64,000 bases of DNA, taken from contig CACXES010000041.1 in NCBI GenBank assembly GCA_902766745.1, positions 62,001 to 126,000 on the forward strand. Direction: 5' to 3'. Source of the stretch: an uncultured Ruminococcus sp. (GTDB taxonomy: Bacteria > Bacillota > Clostridia > Monoglobales > Monoglobaceae). Every line of letters begins with the position of its first letter. Within the stretch, counting starts at the first letter, position 1. The translations under genes and the position numbers were made by a program. The notes beneath the pieces were generated by a model. That model ran no database searches. It was not told the DNA's origin and worked only from the letters and a program-made list of their open reading frames with translations. Shown here piece by piece: positions 11,027 to 15,183 of the stretch.

Positions 11027-11893
11027 CTATTTAATATTCTTCAATATTCTTTCCGCACTTCTTTTGTTTGTTCTCAGATACCTGCCGAGCATATAAATTC
11101 CGTCGGTATCGCCGATTTTAAGATAATTGACCTTCTCCTCACAGGACAGCGTCATTTTAAAGCCAATTTGCTTTAAAATATCGTATGACGCCTCGCTTAC
11201 ACTTCCGAAGGGATATGCAAACAGCTGAGGCTTATAGCCGAGATTGGCGTATATTTCCTCCTGAAGCTTACCTATGTCGGAGCTTATATATTCCGCATAA
11301 GCAGCCTCTGATTCACCCTTTTTCTTTTTGGTTCCGTTTCTGCCCTTATCTGTAGTGTGTGAGTTGTAGCTGTGATTTTCGATTTCTACAAGTCCGGATT
11401 CGCACATTTCCCGAGCCTCGTCCCAGGTTATATGCGAATAAAGAGGGTTTTCCTCCACGGTTTCGCTGTAAATATCCGTGTATTTTCCGATAATTGATAT
11501 TACCGCCTTCGCATTGTACTTTTTCAAAAGCGGAAATGCGTAACAGTAGTTGTTATAGTAGCCGTCGTCAAATGTCAGTAAAATAGGTTTTTCCGGAAGC
11601 GGTGTACCATTGTAGACAAAATCAATAATCTGTGACGCACTGACGGTAGTGTAACCGTTTTCTGATATGTATTTCAAATCCTGCTCGAGTCCCGTTTCGC
11701 TTACAATAAATTTTCCCTCCTTGCCCGAGCTGCTGCAAATCGAATGATACATCAAAACGGGCAAGGAAATTCCGTCGGATTCTTCCTTGTATTCATTGCT
11801 CTCTCCTGCCGCAAAGACAAGATATACAGCAGAGATTGCAACAGAAAAAATAAGAACATATACAATCGTTGTTCTCAGTCTGATTGTGAACAT
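11027..11893 (-). CDS. Membrane-anchored polysaccharide deacetylase (NodB domain)
   Basis: A 288-residue protein with an N-terminal hydrophobic segment (about 8-29) that should anchor or export it, followed by a NodB/CE4 domain. The metal and catalytic motifs are TFDDGY (two Asp near 109-110) and HSYNSH (His near 174 and 179), preceded by PVLMYHSI. This family removes N- or O-acetyl groups from peptidoglycan or other glycans at the cell surface. The substrate is not deducible from the sequence. The first codon of the longest ORF is GTG; the ATG next to it (11891-11893) is better placed after AAGGGGTGG. It follows the YgjV-like gene by 80 bp. Confidence 0.85.
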   Translation of the reverse strand: MFTIRLRTTIVYVLIFSVAISAVYLVFAAGESNEYKEESDGISLPVLMYHSICSSSGKEGKFIVSETGLEQDLKYISENGYTTVSASQIIDFVYNGTPLPEKPILLTFDDGYYNNYCYAFPLLKKYNAKAVISIIGKYTDIYSETVEENPLYSHITWDEAREMCESGLVEIENHSYNSHTTDKGRNGTKKKKGESEAAYAEYISSDIGKLQEEIYANLGYKPQLFAYPFGSVSEASYDILKQIGFKMTLSCEEKVNYLKIGDTDGIYMLGRYLRTNKRSAERILKNIK

Positions 11894-11973
11894 CACACCA
11901 CCCCTTTATAAATAAATATGTCGGGGATAGATAAAATATCCGAAAAAATAAGATTTATGCAGGCTGAATCTAT

Positions 11974-12492
11974 TTAAACCGAGGCTCTCCTATTGATATT
12001 CCTGAATATTGCTATAACCACGGATGCAAAAGCCAATGTTTCACCTATAAGTCCCATATATGAACCGACAAAGATATCATATGTAAACATCAGAATGTTA
12101 TTTGTAACGCCTATCACCCTGGCGGTCTTTATGTTTTTCTGACGAAATGAAACGGTTGCAAGCGAGGATGCCAGGGCAGGGAATATACTGTAATAGCCTT
12201 TCCATGTTATAGCTGCCGACACAAGATTAAATGCAATAAAAATCCACAGCCATACCCTGCTTTTGAAAAATCTTTTATCACCATTTATAAATACAAGCTC
12301 TCGCACAAGGCATATTAAATTAATTGCAAAGGCAGAGCTCGCACCCAGAAGCAAATAATGCGCCGCCCACAAGACATCCATAACCATCTTTGCTTTGAGA
12401 ACGCCCTTCATATTATCAAACTGATACAGTATAATAAAAACAAGTATCCCTGCCGCGCCTAAAATTTGTGCGACAACCTCCGCTGTCGTCAT
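11974..12492 (-). CDS. YgjV-family inner membrane protein
   Basis: A 172-residue multi-pass membrane protein. It has five to six hydrophobic segments and family-like stretches such as LYQFDNMKGVLKAKMVMDVLWAAHYLLLGA and NILMFTYDIFVGSYMGLIGE, which match the Imp-YgjV family of unknown function. Its ATG overlaps the stop of the preceding glycosidase-like gene by 4 bp (ATGA type), so the two are almost certainly co-translated. That coupling suggests a role linked to the sugar substrate, perhaps transport, but this is only inferred. The ribosome-binding site is GAGGAAG. Confidence 0.7.
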   Translation of the reverse strand: MTTAEVVAQILGAAGILVFIILYQFDNMKGVLKAKMVMDVLWAAHYLLLGASSAFAINLICLVRELVFINGDKRFFKSRVWLWIFIAFNLVSAAITWKGYYSIFPALASSLATVSFRQKNIKTARVIGVTNNILMFTYDIFVGSYMGLIGETLAFASVVIAIFRNINRRASV

Positions 12493-14204
12493 TTTGATCT
12501 TCCTCTCTGTAATGTGTAGGTTTTGTTGTTATAGTCAACCGTAACAATGCTGCCGTCCGAATATTTTATCTCAAATACATTAGACTCGGTTTCCTTGTGC
12601 TCCTCCATGAATTCATACTGAAGATATTTTATTTCATTATAAGCGTCAACGGTTTCCTTTGCTTTTGACGCACTGTATTCTATCTCTTCGTTTGTGCTGC
12701 ATTTCAAGTCTCCGGTACCGATCCAGTCCGTGCCGTCGGATACAAACTTCGCATAATAATACATCTGCGGTTTTCCGCCGAATTCAACCACCTTAAGCAT
12801 ATAGTCTTTGTTATCACTCAAAGCATAATTAACAGTTCCGGCGTACGGATTGCTTGCCACAATACCATGATACACAAGCTGCCAAAACGGAATTATTTTG
12901 TCGCAAAGCTTGAATACCGAACCTTTATCCGTAAAATCCGCAAATGACACATACAAGGTGTAATCACATTTTTTTAAATAATAATCATAGGCTCCCTCGG
13001 ATCCGACCGAACCGAACATCTCGACCGATTTTTCGAACAGCTTGTCGAAATAATATCCGGACTTCTTTTTATTTATAAGGTGGTTCACGTTATTACACTC
13101 CCTCGGCGGAGTGCAAGTGATAACATCGATATAATGCATTCCTCTGAAGCCGAGTTCAGCAACCTCGGGCAAGGTGTCCATCGAAATCTCATATGCTCTC
13201 TTCGGACATATATTGTAGGTTCTTCCTCCGCCCCAGCGTACCGCCTCAACGCTCTTTTCGCCGTTTCGCATAATCGCTATATCATCCTCATTAAACCTGT
13301 TTGAAATCGAGTACATATCTGTACTGTTGGTATGGCAGGTAATTGCATATCCAAGACACTTTGCCTTGTTTATAAGCCTTTTCAGCCCTTCCTCTCCGCC
13401 GAAGCTGCTTTCAACAGGCAGGATTTGAGGCCAGCGTCCGTCATGCCCCTTCATATTCCAACCGACAAGGCAAAACTCGGCTTTCTCTATTCCGACTCTT
13501 TTATATGCCTCCATTATCTTGATTACATCATCGAAGGTACACGCAGTATAAACATCAGGCTCATTATCTTCGGTCTGCTCGGCAATCTCACACGGCACAG
13601 GCTTCCAGCCCATACGAATTCTCACGTTTACCGATTCAACCGAATACTCAAGCTCAGGCGTTAATCGCTCTTTGATGGGTTTAAATCCGTGTCTTAGCTG
13701 ATACTCACGGTATGCTCTTGCCATGTCGCTGTATTCCGCATTAACCTTGTCGATATTATAAAATTCAAGGCTGATATTCTCATATGGAACGACTCCGTCA
13801 ACCTCAAAACGAACCTTTAAGTAATATCGATTATCCTCTATTTTTATAACCTGTGAAATATCGGTTGCCATTCCCGTAACAACAGCGATATAACATTTAT
13901 CTTTATGCTTAATTCCAAATACCGGCATAAAGCAATCCTTCAGCACAAGCTCGCAATTCTCACGCTCCTTATAAAATGAAATACCGTAGTCCCTGTTTGC
14001 GCATTTTCCGTTACCTGCCTGGACAAGGAAATAGCCTTCATCACCGGCAAATATCGAATCAGAGTGCAGGGGAAATTCTATATATTCGGTTTTTTCAAAG
14101 TCGGGTATGTCGGTAAGCTCTACCGCCACCGCACTCCCGTATGTAACTTTTGCATCAACATTCGCTTCGCTTCCGTCTTTATATTTTATAAAAAATTTAT
14201 TCAC
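12489..14204 (-). CDS. Probable (beta/alpha)-barrel glycoside hydrolase, DUF5696-like
   Basis: A 571-residue cytoplasmic protein without a signal peptide. It has an N-terminal beta-rich part (about 1-160) and then a barrel-like region with motifs of clan GH-D/GH101-type enzymes: CTFDDVIKIMEAYKRVGIEKAEFCLVGW, CLGYAITCHTNSTDMY, GFRGMHYIDVITCTPPREC and VGSEGAYDYYL. These resemble proteins annotated DUF5696 and alpha-galactosidase-like enzymes, but I cannot name the substrate. The start is GTG (14202-14204) behind AAGGGAG. It is co-translated with the YgjV-like gene and divergent from an AraC regulator with which it shares an overlapping promoter region, a layout typical of a small sugar-use operon. 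Confidence 0.6.
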   Translation of the reverse strand: MNKFFIKYKDGSEANVDAKVTYGSAVAVELTDIPDFEKTEYIEFPLHSDSIFAGDEGYFLVQAGNGKCANRDYGISFYKERENCELVLKDCFMPVFGIKHKDKCYIAVVTGMATDISQVIKIEDNRYYLKVRFEVDGVVPYENISLEFYNIDKVNAEYSDMARAYREYQLRHGFKPIKERLTPELEYSVESVNVRIRMGWKPVPCEIAEQTEDNEPDVYTACTFDDVIKIMEAYKRVGIEKAEFCLVGWNMKGHDGRWPQILPVESSFGGEEGLKRLINKAKCLGYAITCHTNSTDMYSISNRFNEDDIAIMRNGEKSVEAVRWGGGRTYNICPKRAYEISMDTLPEVAELGFRGMHYIDVITCTPPRECNNVNHLINKKKSGYYFDKLFEKSVEMFGSVGSEGAYDYYLKKCDYTLYVSFADFTDKGSVFKLCDKIIPFWQLVYHGIVASNPYAGTVNYALSDNKDYMLKVVEFGGKPQMYYYAKFVSDGTDWIGTGDLKCSTNEEIEYSASKAKETVDAYNEIKYLQYEFMEEHKETESNVFEIKYSDGSIVTVDYNNKTYTLQRGRSK

Positions 14205-14251
14205 CGTATTTTCTCCCTTTTAAAATTTATTTTGATTAATTTATAATTTTA

Positions 14252-14285
14252 ATTGATTTTATCACTTATTCATGCTATAATCAAT
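14252..14285. promoter_or_regulatory. Two overlapping face-to-face promoters (araC-type gene and glycosidase operon)
   Basis: Plus strand: TTGATT (14253-14258), 17 bp, TATAAT (14276-14281), firing towards the AraC regulator. Minus strand: TTGATT (14279-14284), 17 bp, TAAAAT (14256-14261), firing towards the glycosidase gene. Each -35 box overlaps the other promoter's -10 box, and ATTGATT/AATCAAT forms an inverted repeat around the whole. RNA polymerase can occupy only one at a time. Confidence 0.65.
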
Positions 14286-14337
14286 AATGAAAACAAACAT
14301 ATATTTTGTAAAAAAGAACATTTTAAGGAGAAAGTCA

Positions 14338-15183
14338 ATGGAATTGAATGACATAAATCCGTATCTGAGATTTGCGCAAATTCTAAATTATAAACCGACA
14401 AATGAATTTCTTTGCGCAGTTGATTACCATTTTTATTTTATGCTGTCGGATTACTGCAGATTGAAAATCATCGACACAGACTATATTCTGCAAGCTGGCT
14501 CTGCCGTCGTCATTCCTCCGGGAATAAAATACCTCTTTGATACTCAAACCGAAGTCAAGCTTATAAGTATAAATTTCGATTACACTCAAAATTATTCTCA
14601 TTGCGTAAAAGAAGTTCACCCCTTAAGTGCGGACGAATTTGACCCGAATTTAATTATAGAAAAGGTGTATTTTGAAAATTATCCGTTTTTAAACAGACCT
14701 TCGGTCATCAAAAACGTGAGCTATTTATCAGAGTATGCAAACTCAGTCATAAATGAATTTATATACAAAAAACAGCTGTACAAAGCCGCCGCATCTGCAA
14801 TTTTTAAGAATATTATTATCAGCATTGCAAGAGATATAATCTTTGACGGAAAGGACTCTGATGTGATAAATAAGATACTGGACTATATCCATCGGAATTA
14901 TTCCGAAAATATAGACAACGAGGTTTTATCACACTTGGCAGGCTACCACCCGTATCATCTCAACAGACTTATGAAAAAAGCAACGGGAACAACCTTGAGG
15001 CAGTATTTGATAAACTACAGGATAGATACCGCAAAGCATTATCTCAGAGATACAAATTATCAAATATCAAAGATTTCGGAAATGTGCGGATACAATAATT
15101 TTTGCAATTTTTCGTCTGATTTTAAAAGAAAAACAGGGCTGACTCCGAGCTCTTACCGTCTCGAAACACAGCACCTGCTGTAA
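14338..15183 (+). CDS. AraC-family transcriptional regulator
   Basis: A 281-residue regulator with an N-terminal cupin-like sensing domain (about 20-110; ILQAGSAVVIPPGIKYLF) and a C-terminal double helix-turn-helix DNA-binding domain (about 180-275; LSHLAGYHPYHLNRLMKKATG and ISKISEMCGYNNFCNFSSDFKRKTGLTPSSYR). The longest ORF starts at 14287, but only the ATG at 14338 is preceded by a good site (AAGGAG). It lies divergent from the probable glycosidase operon and most likely activates it in response to a sugar. A stem-loop terminator follows at 15199. Confidence 0.88.
   Translation: MELNDINPYLRFAQILNYKPTNEFLCAVDYHFYFMLSDYCRLKIIDTDYILQAGSAVVIPPGIKYLFDTQTEVKLISINFDYTQNYSHCVKEVHPLSADEFDPNLIIEKVYFENYPFLNRPSVIKNVSYLSEYANSVINEFIYKKQLYKAAASAIFKNIIISIARDIIFDGKDSDVINKILDYIHRNYSENIDNEVLSHLAGYHPYHLNRLMKKATGTTLRQYLINYRIDTAKHYLRDTNYQISKISEMCGYNNFCNFSSDFKRKTGLTPSSYRLETQHLL

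Follow-up and report, generated by a model that had tools for sequence, protein, structure and literature searches.

Most studied instances of polymerase competition at overlapping promoters are single loci, and it is an open issue whether such competition has been selected or is incidental. In the araC/araBAD system of Escherichia coli, an autoregulated protein of the AraC family has direct half-sites 21 bp apart by the −35 element of its divergent target, features that the site described here appears to share; the araC and araBAD promoters, however, lie well apart from each other, and looping involves a distant O2 site. A 21-bp direct repeat is the form of site used by AraC proteins, a family to which SoxS also belongs, and class II activators, which contact polymerase at the promoter, are our model for how the regulator would act at the present site. 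We describe a predicted circuit in a 64-kb stretch of DNA (the window) which, unlike that of araC/araBAD, fits in ∼70 bp.

The promoter layout is closest to that of the Pr/Pc pair of pLS20, where mapped starts led to the proposal of a reciprocal −35/−10 overlap (Ramachandran et al. 2014, PMC4207663). There each promoter has its −35 box on the −10 box of its divergent partner and its −10 box on the partner's −35 box, a weak promoter is paired with a strong one, the regulator gene stands on one side and the logic is that of a switch, as we propose for the window. The pLS20 system has a plasmid conjugation regulator (RcoLS20), looping and poor Pr boxes, whereas in the window both promoters are near consensus with extended −10 elements, the DNA is a near-palindrome and the regulator is of the AraC type; the layout, too, is shared by many loci.

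At the E. coli PacrA/acrR promoters, activation by SoxS in one direction represses the RNA made in the other via polymerase competition (Warman et al. 2026, PMC12825309). In the same study, basal activity was too low for competition at all five E. coli bidirectional promoters that were tested, and competition may be negligible without strong activation. Bidirectional promoters are defined by start sites 7–25 bp apart (PMC10268837). Like the circuit that we propose for the window, PacrA/acrR is a single DNA site with two polymerase orientations and an activator on one side that represses the other RNA; it differs in that the −10 elements overlap and the starts are 7–25 bp apart, while the window site interleaves −35 and −10 elements and its predicted starts are ∼39 bp apart. 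pLS20 Pr/Pc and E. coli acrA/acrR are precedents for the switch logic. In a literature search by title and start of abstract, with most subscription papers outside its scope, no paper on a conserved, palindromic promoter with interleaved elements and AraC half-sites came up. The family-wide near-palindromic version, present also beside LysR-type genes and between proA and tatD, appears to be new.

Two interleaved promoters between divergent genes

The original prediction placed two opposed sigma-A promoters with 17-bp spacers on the same DNA, next to the gene of an AraC regulator. Both promoters are found at 14253–14284, and both are also of the extended −10 type. The + strand promoter of the AraC gene (14253..14281) consists of a −35 element TTGATT at 14253–14258, a 17-bp spacer and the extended −10 TGcTATAAT at 14273–14281 (TG at 14273–14274, TATAAT at 14276–14281); it is conserved in homologues. 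The − strand promoter of the DUF5696 gene (14256..14284) has TTGATT at 14284–14279, again a 17-bp spacer, and the extended −10 TGaTAAAAT at 14264–14256 (TG at 14264–14263, TAAAAT at 14261–14256), and its reciprocal offset is conserved. Each −35 element does lie on the opposing −10, with overlaps of 3 bp at 14256–14258 and 14279–14281, which is the reciprocal overlap of the overlapping divergent promoters of pLS20 Pr/Pc type.

The segment 14253–14284 is a 32-base near-palindrome bearing both extended −10 promoters. The near-symmetric inverted repeat that had been claimed is evident in its arms, TTGATT/AATCAA, which are perfectly inverted, and the pseudo-symmetry that would let polymerase bind in two orientations is present at the sequence level. 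Such arms would also suit another interpretation, that the inverted repeat is the operator of a dimeric regulator (AraC or other) and the opposing promoter a by-product of symmetry; palindromic operators are common.

By the usual 7-bp rule, which places the start site relative to the −10 element, the + start would be near 14288 and the − start near 14249, giving leaders of ∼50 nt for the regulator and ∼45 nt for the target. Starts so placed are ∼39 bp apart and diverge, with RNAs that would not overlap, so that 'face-to-face', the term of the original prediction, is a misnomer and 'overlapping divergent' seems to fit better. This predicted spacing lies outside the 7–25 bp, with a shared −10 element, of strictly bidirectional promoters. 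Two more promoter-like sites flank or overlap the pair: TTTAAA-17-TATAAT on the + strand (14219–14247) and TTTACA-17-CATTAT on the − strand (14312–14284).

In AT-rich DNA single promoter matches are cheap: a 3-kb segment had 17 promoter-like sites, where the expectation from shuffles was 10.9. The pair could then be a chance likeness, with one or both starts elsewhere, for example at the two flanking sites just given. Against this, in the 64-kb window TTGAYTNTA-N14-TANARTCAA has one site, against none in 100 dinucleotide shuffles, and with up to two mismatches still one, against a shuffle mean of 0.07.

The adjoining + strand gene (14338..15183) encodes a protein of 281 aa which is an AraC-family regulator, as had been supposed: its C-terminal domain matches HTH_18 (E 8.7e-21) and HTH_AraC (E 1.6e-14) above cut-off, as expected of the double helix-turn-helix of AraC/XylS proteins, and the MarA and SoxS structures match residues 173–276. 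We take ATG 14338, with the ribosome-binding site AAGGAG at 14325..14330, as the start codon. ATG 14287 was rejected; it lies upstream of the predicted start site and is without the good ribosome-binding site that precedes 14338.

On the − strand, the probable first gene of the target operon (12489..14204) encodes a DUF5696 protein with weak Glyco_hydro_101 similarity, starting at GTG 14204 behind the ribosome-binding site AAGGGAG (14213..14219). An Imp-YgjV membrane protein gene (11974..12492) overlaps its end, and 77 bp beyond that comes a polysaccharide deacetylase gene (11027..11896), possibly the third of the operon. A carbohydrate function of these three genes is plausible. In three close relatives (L212–L214), whose regulators have ∼70% identity, the promoters and half-sites are kept and the directly divergent gene is ygjV, not the DUF5696 gene, which suggests ygjV as a core target.

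Conservation of the layout in homologous loci

When the window's own genome was scanned with a loose extended-promoter pattern, near-copies came up on other contigs; two lie upstream of AraC paralogues. Upstream of protein matches, TTGAYTNTA followed by the TANNNTNAA arm was found at 16 loci, with 14 bases between in 15 and 13 in one. This first alignment (A1) was picked by a pattern that fixes the core, so that its invariant columns, and the sequence model R1 built from the 16 loci, are partly so by construction. Searched against 391 genomes from 222 genera of the class, R1 has matches at E≤1e-4 in 43 genomes and 29 genera, with six matches in the own genome.

The further tests, with promoter weights set by hand, do not use the A1 core pattern. 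The first set comprised all 73 loci with protein E≤1e-25 in the 391 genomes; upstream sequence was available for 72. We took the best + promoter by its + score alone and then scored the − strand at the reciprocal offset (offset 0) and at 40 others. Among the 54 loci with + score >8, the − score exceeded 8 in 22 at offset 0 and in none at the other offsets.

The set was enlarged with 80 named genome loci and those collected earlier to 161 loci, of which the partial L290 was dropped and 160 had a start; after removal of duplicates, loci with <120 nt upstream and short proteins, 133 non-redundant homologues remained, all chosen by protein. A good regulator promoter (+ score >8) is present in 111 of the 133. 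The opposing promoter stands at the exact reciprocal offset with a score >4 in 63 of these 111 loci and >8 in 40, while any of the 40 other offsets gives at most 7 and 1, respectively; in 20 rounds of shuffling the mean was 0.35 and the highest count 2. When sites were instead chosen by the sum of the scores of both strands, 56 of 133 loci were found at the natural geometry, against 0–8 at 12 shifted geometries. The comparison therefore backs both promoters and their mutual placement, and conservation at 63 of 111 loci argues against a chance likeness.

The interleaved layout is not obligatory, since in 48 of the 111 loci with a good + promoter the reciprocal − strand scores 4 or less. A quick protein tree implies at least 28 changes of the layout, so either its gains and losses are frequent or the calls are noisy. 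The recurrence of the layout next to dozens of genes for related regulators in Clostridia of the gut suggests that selection for an either/or switch, not accident in AT-rich DNA, lies behind it.

Anatomy of the module and its neighbours

The 63 interleaved loci were selected by both-strand promoter score, so their core columns lean to the motif, while the half-site columns do not. With this qualification, the spacer is 17 bp in 57 loci, 16 bp in five and 18 bp in one. The + strand −10 element is TATAAT in 42/63; on the − strand TAAAAT is the commoner form (31/63, with TATAAT in 14/63). A TG precedes the −10 in 49 loci (+) and 43 loci (−), the CA/TG of both extended −10 elements being conserved within the spacer. 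On both strands conservation falls on the columns of the −35, TG and −10, and this, with the near-constant spacer, speaks against a dimeric operator as the origin of the inverted repeat.

The two promoters differ in strength in a consistent direction. In the 56 loci taken by both-strand selection, the + promoter scores higher in 45 and the − promoter in nine, a count whose rows are related, so that P values are inexact. An earlier count of 49 to 6 was biased, the + sites having been maximized, and is superseded.

A divergent gene was called in 59 of the 63 interleaved loci, with intergenic lengths of 91–233 bp. Leaders predicted for the interleaved loci are mostly 13–61 nt long (range 6–149). 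The divergent targets vary: DUF5696, isomerase-like, Gfo/Idh, WbsX, rhamnosidase-like and copper amine oxidase N-domain proteins and unassigned families, as judged from 10 scanned representatives, four of them without a Pfam match; YgjV-like targets were also seen by inspection of the sequences. Sorted by neighbour, the layout is found in 59 of 101 divergent and 1 of 23 co-directional loci, and in three of nine without a called divergent gene; with + score >8 required, the fractions are 59/97, 1/10 and 3/4 (no called neighbour). The association with a divergent neighbour is suggestive only, being confounded by the many co-directional regulators without a promoter of their own. A tree-based paired comparison yielded 13 pairs, in ∼3 of which the layout differs.

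Putative operator half-sites

Past the + promoter, two putative AraC half-sites stand in direct orientation on the + strand: AAAACAAAC at 14290..14298 and, 21 bp further on, AAAAAGAAC at 14311..14319. The first would occupy approximately −41 to −49 of the − promoter and +3 to +11 of the + transcript; the pair begins at about −41/−62 of the target promoter and +3/+24 of the regulator transcript. At the sequence level the arrangement is thus araBAD-like, with a direct repeat of half-sites at 21-bp spacing next to the −35 of the target. The positions −41/−62 correspond to those of araI2/araI1 at araBAD.

Both position and spacing are conserved. Half-sites resembling AAAACAAAC begin 9 and 30 bases past the + strand −10 in 32/63 and 45/63 interleaved loci, and a pair exactly 21 bp apart is present in 32 of the 63. 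The same spacing is also the commonest in the 70 loci not called interleaved (17/70), where the positions of the repeat vary; the repeat thus behaves like an operator whose presence does not depend on how the promoters are arranged. In the interleaved loci it is placed where the AraC regulator could tip the balance of the two promoters. The presence of this separate direct repeat again counts against the palindrome itself being the operator.

In the nearest homologues (L001, L212–L214, L216 and L258), the segment TTTTGTAAAAA..AACATTT around half-site 2 seems better conserved than it is across the family as a whole, which may reflect subfamily-specific recognition.

A proposed autoregulated switch

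We propose, with a probability of about 0.68, that the locus is a compact autoregulated switch made up of the interleaved promoters and the half-sites, in which the regulator activates the opposing promoter while shutting its own. Polymerase would sit on the 32-bp near-palindrome in one orientation at a time. By default it would take the stronger + orientation (TATAAT), and the AraC-type regulator would be made; from the weaker − orientation (TAAAAT), the DUF5696/YgjV operon would be transcribed. With a carbohydrate as its probable ligand, the regulator would bind the two direct half-sites 21 bp apart, directly upstream of the weaker −35, and recruit polymerase to the − promoter, so that the opposing polymerase is excluded. 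Its own promoter would then be turned off by this competition and by the regulator sitting on its own leader.

The main competitor of the switch is that two real promoters are packed together for compactness, with negligible competition between them, and that AraC controls its target by ordinary recruitment. The short intergenic regions would agree with this, as would the basal activity, too low for competition, of all five E. coli bidirectional promoters tested (PMC12825309), and the proA/tatD pairs described below, which bear the layout without an adjacent called regulator. However, the exact reciprocal offset is not needed for compactness, yet hardly any sites are seen at shifted offsets; a switch also fits with the conserved asymmetry in strength and with where the operator lies, and the same paper shows that SoxS activation does produce competition. 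We regard packing for compactness as unlikely, if still a serious contender.

The rigid, near-palindromic layout repeated beside dozens of AraC homologues, with varied arm strength and divergent partner, provides a natural series for testing whether competition of polymerases has been selected or is incidental. It also supplies a sequence rule by which the targets and operators of many uncharacterized regulators in gut and rumen Clostridia could be found.

The palindrome at loci of other types

The doubly perfect palindrome, TTGAYTATANCA-N8-TGNTATARTCAA, has 19 sites in 18 of the 391 genomes, against none for the reversed-pattern control. Sixteen of these loci were inspected. In 7/7 loci from the family of the window it lies, by inspection of the sequences, between TatD-like and ProA-like genes (one ProA confirmed by NCBIfam, one TatD by Pfam). 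Of the other nine, five are beside a gene that looks LysR-type (one confirmed), two beside an AraC-type gene, and at two neither was called. A looser palindrome with a 14-base centre has 31 sites in the 38 genomes of the family (summed by hand) and none for the reversed-pattern control. When the centre was varied from 4 to 24 bases in the family genomes, 31 of 54 sites had the 32-bp length and 23 were spread over the others (hand count).

These counts bear on two of the explanations above. The reversed-pattern control, together with the shuffles, the offset test and the both-strand selection, leads us to reject chance likeness in AT-rich DNA, the least probable of the explanations considered. 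The occurrence of the same palindrome between proA and tatD and beside LysR-type genes, with no AraC gene adjacent, adds to the case against a dimeric operator with an incidental opposing promoter, which we consider very unlikely.

We suggest tentatively, at somewhat less than even odds, that TTGATTATAnCA-N8-TGnTATAATCAA represents a distinct, reused class of Clostridia promoter, a sigma-A site with interleaved −35 and −10 elements selected for reading in two directions; polymerase itself would be the toggle between regulator and target, or between enzymes such as ProA and TatD.

Several individual loci deserve mention. Between proA and tatD-like genes, L137 (2071–2102) and comparable sites in genomes of the family have an interleaved promoter of perfect symmetry; no regulator gene was called adjacent to the proA/tatD sites. 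The perfect palindromes near base 1500 of L188, L189, L191, L210 and L186 are beside LysR-type genes, with a divergent partner called in four of the five. Orphan copies of the module, with palindrome and half-site-like repeats, were seen at L043 (contig C87 of the window's own genome, ∼3331) and at L044/L045 (contigs C1 and C33), where tblastn found no AraC gene. They adjoin a gene whose start (MIQRKN/MITRKK) resembles that of the isomerase-like targets. At the C49 paralogue (L042), which may act in trans, the repeats are almost the same as on C87.
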